From Rhizobium album (GTDB lineage Bacteria > Pseudomonadota > Alphaproteobacteria > Rhizobiales > Rhizobiaceae), in assembly GCF_003122325.1 (NCBI RefSeq), contig NZ_QFBC01000020.1:62001-126000 (forward strand): a stretch of 64,000 nt of DNA, given 5' to 3'. Under the pieces are notes generated by a model. It had not been told where the DNA came from, made no database searches, and saw nothing but the letters and a program-made list of their open reading frames with translations. The translations under genes and the position numbers were made by a program. Positions 19,898 to 27,207 of this stretch are shown piece after piece (position 1 is the stretch's first letter; the number at the start of each line of letters is the position of its first letter).

Positions 19898-19912
19898 GTT
19901 CAACCTTTGTTC
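19898..19912 (+). promoter_or_regulatory. LexA (SOS) box before dinB
   Basis: GTTC at 19898-19901 and GTTC at 19909-19912 are separated by exactly 7 bases, the direct-repeat LexA site of alphaproteobacteria. It ends 5 bases before the dinB ATG, so LexA bound here would block transcription start or early elongation. Confidence 0.85.
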
Positions 19913-19917
19913 CGAAC

Positions 19918-21207
19918 ATGAGCACTGAACCCAAGTCCAATTCCGGTTTCTGCCGCGACTGCCTGGCCGAGCAGGCACCGACCAGGCGTTGCCGCGCCTG
20001 CGGCAGCCCGCGGCTGGTCTATCATGACGAACTCTACGACCTGACGCTTGCCCATATCGACTGTGACGCCTTTTATGCGGCGATCGAAAAACGCGACAAT
20101 CCCGAGCTTCTGGACAAGCCGCTCATCATCGGCGGCGGCAAGCGCGGCGTCGTCTCCACCGCCTGTTACATCGCCCGCATCCATGGCGTACGCTCGGCGA
20201 TGCCGATGTTCAAGGCGCTCGAAGCCTGTCCCGAAGCGGTGGTCATCCGTCCGGACATGGAAAAATACGTCAGGGTCGGCCGGCAGATCCGGGCGATGAT
20301 GCAGGATCTGACGCCGCTGGTTCAGCCCTTGTCGATCGACGAGGCGTTCCTGGAACTCGACGGGACACAAAGGCTGCATCACGACCCGCCGGCGCGCATC
20401 CTCGCCCGTTTTGCCAAACGGGTGGAAAACGAGATCGGCATCACCATCTCGATCGGCCTTTCCTATTGCAAGTTCCTCGCCAAGGTCGCCTCCGACCTGC
20501 AGAAGCCGCGCGGCTTTTCGGTCATCGGCCAGCGGGAGGCGCTCGATTTCCTCGCTCCCCGCCCCGTCACGACGATCTGGGGCGTCGGCAAGGCGTTTGC
20601 CGCAACGCTGGAACGCGACGGCATCCGCACCATAGGGCAGTTCCAGACGATGGAGGAAAACGAACTGATGCGCCGCTACGGCACCATGGGCCAGCGCCTC
20701 TATCGCTTGTCGCGCGGCATCGACGATCGCGAGGTGCATCTCAACGACACCGCCAAGAGCGTTTCGGCGGAGACGACCTTCTTCGACGACATCGCCCGTT
20801 TCGACGACCTCGTGCCGCTGCTGCGCAACCTTTCCGAAAAGGTCGCCTGGCGGCTGAAGAAGAACGCAGTCGCCGGCAATACCGTGGTGCTGAAGCTCAA
20901 GACCGCGGACTTCAAGATCCGCACCCGCAACAAGCGGCTGGAGGATCCGACGCAGCTTGCCGACAGGATTTTCCGCACCGGGCTGAGCATGCTGGAGAAA
21001 GAGGCCGACGGAACGAAATTCCGCCTTCTCGGCATCGGCGTCACCGATCTCACCGATCCCGGCCGGGCCGACCCGCCCGACCTCGTGGACGCACATGCCG
21101 CGCGTCGCGCCGCCGCCGAGGCCGCCGTCGACAAGCTCCGCGAAAAATTCGGGAAAAACACTGTCGAAACCGGTTATACCTTCCAGACGGGACGCCGCGA
21201 TCAATAA
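19918..21207 (+). CDS. dinB: DNA polymerase IV with N-terminal zinc-ribbon-like extension
   Basis: A 429-residue Y-family translesion polymerase. The catalytic acids are in [12 protein letters not shown] (about residue 44) and [11 protein letters not shown] (about residue 141); the little-finger domain follows after about residue 285. The first 40 residues carry two cysteine pairs, CRDC and CRAC, that look like a zinc ribbon and are absent from E. coli DinB (351 aa). The gene is preceded by a perfect SOS box 5 bases from the ATG. It probably starts a single-gene transcript. Confidence 0.95.
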
Positions 21208-22758: not shown

Positions 22759-25700
22759 TCACACCAGCTCGACGTCGATCACACCCGGTGCCGAACGTAA
22801 GGCAGCGGCGATTTCCGGCGAGATACGGTATTTTTCCGTCAATGCCACCTCGATCTCGCGCTGGCCCTCTTCCTTGATGACGATGAAGGACACCAGGCCG
22901 TCACCCTTGGCGTTGAGATGGGCGGCGACCGTTCGAAGCGGTCCGGCGTCGCGCACATAGATGCGCAAGGCCTTCTGCATCTGGATCGATTTTTCCTCGA
23001 GCGATTGTGCCGTCTGGATTCGGAGACCGATGCCTTCGGGACGTTCTTCGGCATTGACCGTGAGGATCAGCGATTTTCCGGGCTCCAGAAGGTCCCGGTA
23101 CTGGTTGAGGCCTTCGGAAAACAGCACCGCCTCGTACTGACCGGACGGATCGGAAAAGGAGACGATGCCCATCTTGTTGCCGGTGCGCGTCTTGCGCTCC
23201 TGCTTCATCGTCACCGTGCCGGCCAGTCGTCCGGCGGAAGCACCCTGTTTCACCGCAGCGGAAAAATCGGCAAAACTCTGCACCCGCATCTTCGACAGCA
23301 GGCTCGCATAGGAATCCAGCGGGTGTGCCGACAGATAGAAGCCGAGCACCTGAAATTCGCGGTGCATCTTTTCCGAGGCAAGCCAGGGCGCGAAGGTGGG
23401 GAAGGTGATGGTTTCCGGCCCGGTCGCGGCCCCCGAGCCGAACATGTCCGATTGGCCGCTCGTCTTGTTTTCCTGTGCCCGCTGGGCATAACCGATGATG
23501 CGGTCGAGGCCGGCGATCATTTCGGCGCGGTCACGGCCGAAACAATCGAAGGCGCCTGCCGAAATGAGGCTTTCGAACACTCGCCGGTTCACCTGCTTCG
23601 GATCGATACGCAGGCAGAAATCCTCGATGCTGGCGAAAGGCTTGTCGCCGCGCACCGCAACGATGTGCTCGACGGCCGCTTCGCCGACGCCCTTGATGGC
23701 GGCGAGCGAATAGAAGATGCAGTTGTCGCCCGTTTCGAACATCCGGAACGAGGTCTGAACCGATGGCGGCACCACCTTGATGCCGAGCCGCTTGGCATCC
23801 TGCCGGAAATCGTTGAGCTTGTCGGTGTTCGACATATCGTAGGTCATCGACGCGGCGAGGAATTCCACCGGGTAATGCGCCTTGAGATAGGCCGTCTGGT
23901 AAGACACGATGGCGTAGGCCGCCGCGTGCGACTTGTTGAAGCCGTAATTGGCGAACTTTGCCAAGAGGTCGAAGATCAGGTCCGATTGCGGTTTCGACAC
24001 GCCGTTCTTGACGGCGCCGGTGACGAAACGCTCGCGCTGCTTGTCCATCTCCTCCTTGATCTTCTTGCCCATGGCGCGGCGCAAAAGATCGGCCTCGCCG
24101 AGCGAATAGCCCGAAAGGACCTGGGCGATCTGCATCACCTGTTCCTGGTAGACAATGACGCCCTGCGTTTCCTTGAGCAGGTGGTCGATCATCGGATGGA
24201 TGCTCTCGATCTCCTCCTCGCCGTGCTTGCGGGCGTTGTAAACCGGGATGTTTTCCATCGGACCCGGGCGATACAGCGCCACCAGCGCGATGATGTCCTC
24301 GATGCAGTCCGGCCGCATGCCGATCAGCGCCTTGCGCATGCCGGCACTTTCCACCTGGAAGATGCCGACCGTTTCGCCGCGCGACATCATTTCGTAGGTT
24401 TTCGCGTCGTCCAGCGGCAGGCTTTCGAGTTTCACCTCGATGCCGCGCTTGGCGATGAAATCGACGCCGGTCTTCAGCACGGTCAGCGTCTTGAGGCCGA
24501 GGAAGTCGAACTTCACCAGGCCCGCCTGCTCGACCCATTTCATGTTGAACTGGGTGACCGGCATGTCCGACCGCGGATCGCGGTACATCGGCACCAGCTT
24601 CGACAGCGGCCTATCACCGATGACGATGCCGGCGGCGTGGGTCGACGCGTGCCGGTAAAGGCCTTCGATCTTCTGGGCGATATCCAGCAGTCGGGCGACG
24701 ACGGGTTCTTTTTCCGCCTCCTCCCGCAGTTTCGGCTCCTCCTCGATCGCCTTGTACAGCGGCGTCGGATTGGCAGGGTTGTTGGGCACGAGCTTGCAGA
24801 TCTTGTCGACCTGGCCGTAAGGCATCTCCAGCACGCGGCCGACGTCGCGCAGTGCCGCGCGCGCCTGCAGCGAACCGAAGGTGATGATCTGCGCCACCTG
24901 CTCGCGGCCGTATTTCTGCTGGACGTAGCGGATCACCTCTTCGCGCCGGTCCTGGCAAAAGTCGATGTCGAAGTCCGGCATCGAAACGCGGTCCGGATTG
25001 AGAAAGCGTTCGAACAGCAGCGAGAATCGCAACGGATCGACGTCGGTGATCGTCAGCGCATAAGCGACGAGCGAGCCCGCACCCGAACCACGCCCCGGAC
25101 CGACCGGGATATCCTGCAGCTTCGCCCATTTGATGAAGTCGGCAACGATCAGGAAGTAGCCCGGAAACTTCATGCGTTCGATGACGCCGAGTTCGAACTG
25201 CAACCGCTCGCGATAGTCCTTCTCGTCGTACCCTTCCGCCATGCCGAGCGTCGCCAGGCGGTGGTCGAGGCCTTCTTCGGCCTGTCGGCGCAATTCTGCC
25301 CCTTCGGCGCGATCAGCCTCCTCCTCGTCGCTTGTCGCCGCGCTGGTGAAGCGCGGCAGGATCGGCTTGCGGGTCTTGAGTACGAACGAGCATCGCCGGG
25401 CGATCTCCACCGTATTTTCCAAAGCTTCCGGCAGGTCCGCAAACAGCCTGGCCATATCCGCGCGGCTTTTCAGATAATGGTCCGGCGTCAAGCGGAACCG
25501 GCTGTCGTCGGAGACGATCGCATTGTGCGCCACCGCCATCAGCGCATCATGGGCATCGAAATCATCGGGAGACGGAAAAAACGCTTCGTTGGTGGCCACC
25601 AGAGGTACGTCATGAGCGTAAGCGAGATCTACCATTCTCGCTTCGTGTCGGCGGTCGTAATTACCATGCCGCTGCAGCTCGATGTAAAGCTGATCGCCGA

Positions 25701-26259
25701 ACAGCGCCTTCAGCGTCAAGAGGCGTTGCTCGGCCATCGCCGCATGCCCCTCCCTCGAGGCGATGTCAACGGGACCGCCGACGCCGCCGGTCAGCACGAT
25801 CAAGCCGTCGGTGCCACCTTCCTGCAGCCAGGACAGGCGAATATTGACGGAGCCGTTGCCCTCGCCGCCGAGATAGGCGCGGCTGACGAGGTCGACGAGA
25901 TTTTCGTATCCGACCGCATTGGCGGCGAGCAATACCACCGACGGCAGCTTGACGAAGGATTGCAGGCCGCGCTTGTCGGTCTCCTGTCCGTCCTCCATGT
26001 CGATCGACACCTGGCAACCGATGATCGGTTGCAGACCCTCACCGACAGCCTTTTCGGAAAATTCCAGCGCAACGAAGAGATTGTTGGTATCGGTGATGGC
26101 AATTGCCGGCTGGCCGTCGGCAGCAGCCTTGCTCAGGATCTTCTTGAGAGGCAAAGCGCCCTCAAGCAGGGAATAGGCAGAATGAACCCGCAGATGAACG
26201 AATTCCAGCGCGCCCCGGCTTTCGCCTCCGACGCCCGACACAGCCCCTACCGTTGCCAT
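22759..26259 (-). CDS. dnaE: DNA polymerase III alpha subunit
   Basis: The replicative polymerase catalytic subunit (DnaE1 type), 1166 residues. The N-terminal PHP domain starts at HLRVHSAYSLLEGA; the palm carries PDFDIDFCQDRR with the catalytic aspartates, and PGRGSGAGSLVAY precedes it. Helix-hairpin-helix, OB-fold and tau-binding parts follow. The ATG at 26259 has GGAAGG seven bases upstream; an ATG at 26277 would add six residues. The gene could be read partly from the LexA-controlled promoter at 26491-26519 upstream, because no convincing terminator lies between. A 1099-codon open frame on the opposite strand is a composition artefact. Confidence 0.97.
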   Translation of the reverse strand: MATVGAVSGVGGESRGALEFVHLRVHSAYSLLEGALPLKKILSKAAADGQPAIAITDTNNLFVALEFSEKAVGEGLQPIIGCQVSIDMEDGQETDKRGLQSFVKLPSVVLLAANAVGYENLVDLVSRAYLGGEGNGSVNIRLSWLQEGGTDGLIVLTGGVGGPVDIASREGHAAMAEQRLLTLKALFGDQLYIELQRHGNYDRRHEARMVDLAYAHDVPLVATNEAFFPSPDDFDAHDALMAVAHNAIVSDDSRFRLTPDHYLKSRADMARLFADLPEALENTVEIARRCSFVLKTRKPILPRFTSAATSDEEEADRAEGAELRRQAEEGLDHRLATLGMAEGYDEKDYRERLQFELGVIERMKFPGYFLIVADFIKWAKLQDIPVGPGRGSGAGSLVAYALTITDVDPLRFSLLFERFLNPDRVSMPDFDIDFCQDRREEVIRYVQQKYGREQVAQIITFGSLQARAALRDVGRVLEMPYGQVDKICKLVPNNPANPTPLYKAIEEEPKLREEAEKEPVVARLLDIAQKIEGLYRHASTHAAGIVIGDRPLSKLVPMYRDPRSDMPVTQFNMKWVEQAGLVKFDFLGLKTLTVLKTGVDFIAKRGIEVKLESLPLDDAKTYEMMSRGETVGIFQVESAGMRKALIGMRPDCIEDIIALVALYRPGPMENIPVYNARKHGEEEIESIHPMIDHLLKETQGVIVYQEQVMQIAQVLSGYSLGEADLLRRAMGKKIKEEMDKQRERFVTGAVKNGVSKPQSDLIFDLLAKFANYGFNKSHAAAYAIVSYQTAYLKAHYPVEFLAASMTYDMSNTDKLNDFRQDAKRLGIKVVPPSVQTSFRMFETGDNCIFYSLAAIKGVGEAAVEHIVAVRGDKPFASIEDFCLRIDPKQVNRRVFESLISAGAFDCFGRDRAEMIAGLDRIIGYAQRAQENKTSGQSDMFGSGAATGPETITFPTFAPWLASEKMHREFQVLGFYLSAHPLDSYASLLSKMRVQSFADFSAAVKQGASAGRLAGTVTMKQERKTRTGNKMGIVSFSDPSGQYEAVLFSEGLNQYRDLLEPGKSLILTVNAEERPEGIGLRIQTAQSLEEKSIQMQKALRIYVRDAGPLRTVAAHLNAKGDGLVSFIVIKEEGQREIEVALTEKYRISPEIAAALRSAPGVIDVELV

Positions 26260-26375
26260 CGCATGCCTTCCAATCATTCACTTGAATCAAGCCTGATTGT
26301 CGGCTTCCCAGGCAGCAGAGTCCAGTACGGCCCAAAGGTTCTGCAGGAAATTATCACGGACGCGAGCTTGCGTCC

Positions 26376-26462
26376 TCACATCGCCATCATGATCACCGAC
26401 AGGCTGGCGATAAACGTCACAATGGAAGCGAAGGCAGCGATATCACGAATAAAATCAGTCAT
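26376..26462 (-). CDS. 28-aa hydrophobic peptide behind an SOS-type promoter
   Basis: A 28-codon ORF: MTDFIRDIAAFASIV, then a hydrophobic stretch to the C-terminus (IASLSVIMMAM), giving one membrane helix from about residue 8 to 28. AAGGAG lies seven bases upstream of the ATG, an ideal ribosome site, and a consensus promoter with a LexA box precedes it by about 30 bases. Size, hydrophobicity and SOS-type control recall TisB and DinQ of E. coli, which depolarise the membrane, but there is no sequence match and the similarity is an inference. A 6-bp GGACGC/GCGTCC hairpin without a U-tract follows the stop, and dnaE begins 116 bp later. It could alternatively be a leader peptide of dnaE. Confidence 0.6.
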   Translation of the reverse strand: MTDFIRDIAAFASIVTFIASLSVIMMAM

Positions 26463-26490
26463 TGCATCTCTCCTTACCTCTTATGTTTTT

Positions 26491-26519
26491 ATTTTGTTCT
26501 CTTTTGGTTCCGGTGTCAA
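26491..26519 (-). promoter_or_regulatory. Promoter with LexA box in the spacer
   Basis: Reading leftwards, TTGACA (26519-26514) and CAAAAT (26496-26491) are 17 bp apart. The spacer contains GAAC-CAAAAGA-GAAC (26510-26496), a perfect alphaproteobacterial SOS box (direct repeat, N7), overlapping the first base of the -10. LexA bound there would block RNA polymerase. This is the best -35 match noted in the window. Confidence 0.7.
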
Positions 26520-26622
26520 TCCCAATTTTGAGCCGTTCCCCGCTATTCTCCCATCACGCGGATGCTGGACCCCTCCTCGGGGTTTGGATATGAAAACACA
26601 GTCGAAAAAGAGGAGTACGAGA

Positions 26623-27207
26623 ATGATCCGAGCCCTGCTCGCCGCCGTGGCGCTCGTCACGGGCACATCCGCTGCCCTGGCTGCCGAACCGATCGCCCCG
26701 GAGCGCATCATCGATGCCGTGACCGGCGACTGGAACAAGGACGACCAGTCGGACCTTGCCCTTCTCGTGGCGCCGGCGGAAGGCGAGGACATGATCGGCA
26801 TCTACATCTATGTCCGCGACAAGGATCATCCGCTGCTCAAGCTGGTGGCCGAAGCGCCGGGCAAGATCTGGGGCAACAGCAGCCTGGACGGCATGTTCGG
26901 CCAGGATCCGTCGCTGACCGCGCTGGCGAACGGCTCCATCGCCGTGCATTCGCAAAACAGCGGTATCGGCCGCAACCGCTGGGAACAGAGGATGACGCTC
27001 GCTTATCGCAACGGCGATTTCGTCGTCGCCGGCTATACCTACAACGACTACGACACGCTCGACCCCAATGCCGGAACGACCTGCGATTACAACGTGCTGA
27101 CCGGCAAGGCCAAGGTGAACGACAAGGAACTGCGTGTCGAACCGAAGTTCATCACCATCCAGGATTGGGACGATACCAAGGATCGCGGTCCCTGCAGCAG
27201 CGATTGA
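26623..27207 (+). CDS. Secreted protein of unknown function
   Basis: A 194-residue exported protein: signal peptide MIRALLAAVALVTGTSAALA, then a mature domain beginning EPIAPERIIDAVTGDWNKDD. It contains several Asp/Asn-rich turns and a cysteine pair near the end (C at about 165 and CSSD at the C-terminus) that could form a disulfide. Family not recognised. AGGAG precedes the ATG at 26623; an ATG at 26590 would add eleven residues. It diverges from the SOS-type promoter at 26491-26519, but its own promoter is not clear. Its leader has an ACCCC/GGGGT hairpin around 26569-26583. It ends 21 bp from the convergent lolD stop. Confidence 0.75.
   Translation: MIRALLAAVALVTGTSAALAAEPIAPERIIDAVTGDWNKDDQSDLALLVAPAEGEDMIGIYIYVRDKDHPLLKLVAEAPGKIWGNSSLDGMFGQDPSLTALANGSIAVHSQNSGIGRNRWEQRMTLAYRNGDFVVAGYTYNDYDTLDPNAGTTCDYNVLTGKAKVNDKELRVEPKFITIQDWDDTKDRGPCSSD

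Follow-up and report, generated by a model that had tools for sequence, protein, structure and literature searches.

SidA of Caulobacter is described as a 29-residue inner-membrane protein of the SOS response that inhibits cell division by acting on FtsW (PMC4211646). Caulobacter has a second inhibitor, DidA, which can mask the loss of SidA (PMC4211646). Its gene is listed as CCNA_02004 (PMC10769358), and Caulobacter dnaE appears in an older numbering as CC1926 (PMC1839093). SOS-controlled membrane inhibitors of division are also described from other phyla, namely YneA, SosA and ChiZ (PMC13396833); judged by description, they share a strategy with SidA and with the peptide presented here, that of a small membrane protein working on late division proteins. 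Among the matches listed in a search of the open-access literature (mostly titles), none reports a SidA homologue in rhizobia, nor does any of those listed describe a mechanism by which rhizobia or their relatives arrest division after DNA damage. The window, by which we mean the whole stretch of 64,000 nucleotides of Rhizobium album DNA that was analysed, carries a LexA-boxed gene for a 28-residue membrane peptide next to dnaE1, and we read it, with a probability of about 0.7, as an SOS gene for a SidA-like peptide that stops division.

The Caulobacter locus used for comparison comes from C. vibrioides DSM 9893, where the region was located by a scan with the start of Caulobacter DnaE. Immediately before dnaE and in the same orientation, an ORF lies behind the box GAACATCTTGTGAAC; its first ATG gives 40 codons and an inner ATG gives 29 residues. 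The 29-residue product is SidA by NCBIfam NF033228 (div_inhib_SidA; 72.4 bits over residues 1-29, cut-off 35). The window locus has the same layout, a direct-repeat LexA box followed by an ORF and then by a co-directional dnaE, and the two products are alike in length (29 and 28 residues) and in forming one hydrophobic helix.

The features of the window locus are collected in Table 1. The initial annotation had placed a TTGACA-N17-CAAAAT promoter on the minus strand with GAAC-N7-GAAC in its spacer, and this arrangement is present exactly as described; the box occupies the spacer and its final base is also the first base of the -10 hexamer. No other promoter-like site occurs in 26200-26700 (shuffle mean 0.3). 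The AAGGAG site that had been noted downstream is likewise there, starting ~15 bases after the -10 hexamer and not the ~30 first given. The 28-codon ORF (ATG at 26462, stop TGA at 26378-26376) encodes MTDFIRDIAAFASIVTFIASLSVIMMAM (28 aa), which bears out its earlier description as one hydrophobic helix: the best 19-residue Kyte-Doolittle mean is 2.3, and the only charged residues are D3, R6 and D7. Directly 3' of the stop codon there is a GGACGC/GCGTCC hairpin lacking a T-run, and no terminator-like site was found in the window between the peptide and dnaE1. The latter runs in the same direction and starts at 26277, or at 26259 with GGAAGG before it. The same-strand genes upstream of the peptide are lolE and lolD (read by eye). 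Between lolD and the peptide promoter lies a divergent 193-residue ORF (26625-27204, plus strand) with a signal-like start and no NCBIfam or Pfam match.

Table 1. Promoter, box and genes of the peptide locus, in window coordinates.
Feature	Position	Strand	Basis or remark
TTGACA, -35 hexamer	26514-26519	minus	promoter scan
CAAAAT, -10 hexamer	26491-26496	minus	promoter scan; 17-base spacer from -35
GAACCAAAAGAGAAC, LexA (SOS) box	26496-26510	minus	perfect GAAC-N7-GAAC
AAAC, degenerate third half-site	26485-26488	minus	11-base phase with the two GAAC half-sites
AAGGAG, ribosome binding site	26470-26475	minus	7 bases 5' of ATG
28-codon ORF and stop, SidA-like single-helix membrane peptide (predicted)	26376-26462	minus	ORF translation, homologues, coding test
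Peptide-dnaE1 gap, 116 bases	26260-26375	minus	without terminator-like site
dnaE1, replicative DNA polymerase III alpha subunit	22759-26277	minus	TIGR00594, 1210 bits, E 0

The box taken alone was rejected as evidence. Chance matches in 64 kb had been anticipated in the initial annotation, and they do occur: the window holds five perfect GAAC-N7-GAAC matches against a shuffle mean of 2.16 (five or more in 10 of 100 shuffles), and the whole genome holds 200 against 135 for the backwards motif, so that a box by itself is uninformative. Chance is ruled out for promoter, box and ORF as a unit because the unit is conserved across relatives. LexA is encoded in this genome, and a perfect box precedes the model match to its gene by 63 bases. 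The recA gene shows one-mismatch boxes only, which makes the motif no sharp guide to regulation. Another of the window's perfect LexA-type boxes (19898-19912, minus strand) precedes an ORF (19918-21207, plus strand), with 5 bases between the box and the first ATG; by eye the product looks like a DinB-type polymerase, whose gene may also be under SOS control. Genome G000 holds three more DnaE-type genes (C2:64157-67093, C6:10492-13428 and C14:16225-19308), all above the TIGR00594 cut-off.

With the peptide as query, 21 of 61 relatives were matched at E ≤ 10; the weakest of these are chance hits in other frames, and the good matches lie mostly upstream of dnaE behind a box. A second search started from dnaE1, and hence did not presuppose the peptide. 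It used the upstream stretches of 110 family genomes, the top-ranking of 153 with DnaE matches (G218, at a contig edge, was left out), a sample that leans to closer kin because it was drawn from the highest-ranking matches. A perfect GAAC-N7-GAAC is found on the dnaE strand upstream of dnaE1 in 60 of the 110, and in every one of the 60 the box is followed, at 20 to 125 bases, by a hydrophobic ORF 22-45 codons long. The controls for box and hydrophobic ORF together gave 0/110 on the reverse strand and 0/110 with the backwards motif. Five further genomes of the 110 have the peptide behind a one-mismatch box. One genome with a boxed copy at dnaE (G018; L154 on G018:C4) has a possible second copy, MRDLLHDIASFVAVSTFIATFAVWAGYLAEKV, at L018 (G018:C27:37437), a weak match (E 0.1) with no box within 120 bases.

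The comparison across the Rhizobiaceae that the initial annotation had suggested thus gave a peptide conserved at the codon level with its box kept (60 of 110 genomes). For 36 ORFs (630 pairs), picked by a pattern on residues 9-11 that favours conservation at those residues, pairwise identity at codon positions 1, 2 and 3 is 0.634, 0.843 and 0.431; past the stop codon of the same ORFs it is flat at ~0.26 in all three frames. The median dN/dS is 0.263, with 94.5% of values below 0.5 (399 pairs with usable pS, of 630). Codon-position identities and dN/dS together indicate that the window-type ORF is a protein-coding gene under purifying selection. In an alignment of 26 peptides D7 and F17 never vary, and R6, A10 and S13 are the majority residues. 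A promoter survey covered 84 units, the 60 upstream of dnaE1 and 24 of 29 further loci described below. The seven bases between the half-sites are A-rich in these units; in 55/84 a TTGA[CT]N hexamer stands with exactly 3 bases between it and the box, and in 10/84 none occurs within 40 bases. The third half-site position reads [GA]AAC, GGAC or GATC in 54/84 units, and exactly GAAC in 14/84.

Gapless alignment of the window peptide with C. vibrioides SidA gives 5 identities and 12 positive-scoring positions of 28, the shared residues being R6, D/E7, A10, F/L11, S13, I/V14, F17 and I/V18. Profile-profile alignment of the rhizobial peptides with SidA (hhalign) returns E 2e-5 and a probability of 77% over 20 columns. 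The gapless profile score is matched by 7 of 20000 column shuffles, by 17 of 20000 that preserve hydropathy class and by 148 of 20000 in which the N-terminal eight positions stay fixed. A profile of 43 Hyphomicrobiales peptides was also used to rank 1124 segments from ten loci of Caulobacter and its kin (two of them from bins; L067 has no SidA-type ORF, and L070, from a planctomycete bin with 39% identity, was left out). The nine SidA-type ORFs took the first nine places, at modest E values of 0.0017 to 0.06 (L064 is the weakest), and the next segment has an E of 3.5.

Set against these likenesses, only 5 of 28 residues are identical, the window peptide matches no NCBIfam family at E ≤ 1, NF033228 included, the invariant W19-M20 of SidA is absent from the window peptide and from all 19 rhizobial peptides compared, and hhalign covers columns 1-20 only, leaving the second half unaligned. 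Other family searches were rejected as sources of a name: PHROGs gave E 0.063 and 0.32, neither worth keeping, and Pfam gave DUF1270 only (13.5 bits, E 0.098, cut-off 27). On the profile evidence the window peptide is homologous to SidA, and we call the homology distant because the peptide has no NCBIfam match; part of the likeness could be convergence of short single-helix peptides. By its sequence, the peptide is best termed SidA-like rather than a certified SidA.

The same differences bear on where the peptide acts. It might be an SOS membrane peptide that descends from SidA but has changed function, with a target outside the divisome such as a protease, a transporter or a lipid enzyme. A match confined to the N-terminal two thirds and the missing W19-M20 point that way, whereas conservation in the rhizobial group and in the SidA group alike is highest in the shared core, and we regard a non-divisome target as unlikely.

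A different account, already raised in the initial annotation, makes the ORF a leader (uORF): the promoter would give dnaE1 SOS control, and the ORF would only tune dnaE1 translation or transcription. Consistent with this, the peptide immediately precedes dnaE1 and nothing resembling a terminator was found in between, and 18 of 21 order-level copies lie near dnaE. A Ribo-seq study of Sinorhizobium meliloti also reports translation of sORF25, located in the dnaE1 5'-UTR, and suggests that such ORFs may act as uORFs; neither LexA nor SOS occurs in its main text (PMC10117765). The gene order in S. meliloti Ak57 is proS, a lipoprotein-releasing permease, an ABC ATPase (lolD), the peptide and dnaE. 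Here the homologue MADFVRDLAAFASMSLFIVSISVIALGL (28 aa) lies 150 bases before dnaE and behind two overlapping perfect boxes (L237 2453-2478); the PLSDB gene table, which is incomplete, has no gene at this place. To judge from its place, MADFVRDLAAFASMSLFIVSISVIALGL is probably the sORF25 of that study (PMC10117765), although this interval before dnaE contains further short ORFs, of 26 and 27 codons. Two records filed as plasmids, CP090106.1 (pSymB, 3.7 Mb) and NZ_CP069303.1 (4.6 Mb), carry the peptide, which in CP090106.1 adjoins proS and dnaE; both may be mislabelled chromosomes.

Several observations speak against a leader. Selection acts on the amino-acid sequence. The gap between peptide and dnaE varies from 71 to 529 bases across relatives (dnaE start assumed), no common hairpin was seen by eye in this gap across 60 relatives, and the window leader RNA folds no better than shuffles (z -0.07). 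Above all, the unit is not confined to sites with dnaE downstream. Among the family genomes lacking it within 800 bases of dnaE, 44 were followed up (G244, on a short contig, was left out), and from 35 of them a profile of 26 peptides recovered a copy (E ≤ 1e-3). With the peptides reversed as a decoy, the profile gave nothing at that threshold in 45 genomes (best 0.002). Twenty copies are on other contigs and 11 on the dnaE contig at least 20 kb away, which makes 31 genomes of the family sample with a distant copy, and four are near dnaE, 184 to 1536 bases off (G279, G252, G215 and G315). Adding the 65 of 110 genomes with the unit at dnaE, a copy is present in 100 of 109 examined family genomes (G244 excluded).

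The box travels with these copies. It is perfect at 26 of 29 inspected loci, and the box nearest to consensus stands between -45 and -66 relative to the start codon; the exceptions are L190, with two one-mismatch boxes, and L199 and L201, with none. When the three near-dnaE loci (L181, L195 and L201) are set aside, a perfect box is present at 24 of 26 away loci. The upstream neighbours of 15 of the 29 loci (one of the 15 near dnaE) belong to a single protein cluster, and the three of these neighbours that were examined read by eye as LolD. Seven loci (L186, L187, L189, L192, L194, L196 and L198) have three GAAC half-sites in 11-base phase and hence two perfect LexA boxes that overlap, an arrangement that may mean co-operative or tighter LexA binding. 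No copy was found at E ≤ 1e-3 in nine of the 44 genomes; LexA is absent from two of them (G008 and G277) and present in the other seven, four of which have weak full- or near full-length matches (E 0.001 to 0.05). Co-occurrence of LexA and peptide was rejected as support, since seven of the nine copy-less genomes have LexA.

Because box and peptide persist together where dnaE is not adjacent, the unit is more than a dnaE leader, and as the whole explanation a leader is very unlikely. The other half of that proposal, SOS transcripts entering dnaE1, fares better: read-through is possible because no terminator-like site separates the two genes, and it is worth considering because the S. meliloti study puts sORF25 in the dnaE1 5'-UTR.

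TisB and DinQ of E. coli are short SOS-controlled membrane peptides under antisense RNA control. The initial annotation had likened the window peptide to them, which would make it an SOS-induced, membrane-depolarising toxin that leads to dormancy and is usually held in check by an antisense RNA; by description the size, the single hydrophobic helix and the SOS box are indeed alike, but 25900-27000 has no Rfam match at E ≤ 1 (a type I antitoxin RNA of a described family was rejected on this ground; an undescribed one may exist), the peptide has no NCBIfam match at E ≤ 1 and no Pfam match above cut-off, SidA matches closely in sequence, position, length and control, and the invariant D7 and F17 with the majority residues R6, A10 and S13 would be unneeded by a generic pore-former, all of which renders a toxin of this type highly improbable.

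A SidA-like division inhibitor thus remains our preferred reading, and its relatives extend beyond the family. A search of 101 genomes of the order matched 24 at E ≤ 0.05. Twenty-one of the 24 come from outside the family, and their copies have a perfect box in 16 cases, a one-mismatch box in three and no box in two. The remaining 77 of the 101 gave no match at E ≤ 0.05 with the profile, which was trained on the family. A class-wide search found the DnaE start in 109 of 142 genomes, and six of 29 inspected loci (the window aside) combine a perfect box with a short hydrophobic ORF downstream (L034, L035, L036, L038, L043 and L054), a count made without a control. We suggest tentatively, at somewhat less than even odds, that SidA is one branch of an old family, mostly placed before dnaE, that spans Hyphomicrobiales and other orders and constitutes an unrecognised SOS checkpoint of the Alphaproteobacteria.

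For the window gene we envisage the following. In undamaged cells LexA would sit on the box inside the promoter and keep the gene off. On DNA damage, RecA would trigger LexA cleavage, the promoter would fire and the 28-residue peptide would be made. It would insert in the inner membrane as one helix and, by homology to SidA, bind FtsW/FtsN of the late divisome, delaying septal wall synthesis until repair. Some transcripts from this promoter probably run on into dnaE1. Control and product are supported by the sequence, and the divisome target is suggested by analogy; we infer division arrest by the peptide in rhizobia on the same analogy.

If this is true, then, wherever the genes adjoin, a single transcript under LexA control would halt division while supplying additional replicative polymerase, and damaged cells would keep replicating without dividing. 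The existing Ribo-seq sORF would gain a function other than that of a uORF, and the rhizobial peptides would provide a natural variant set for mapping the SidA-FtsW contact. Much of the order would then have a testable checkpoint effector.
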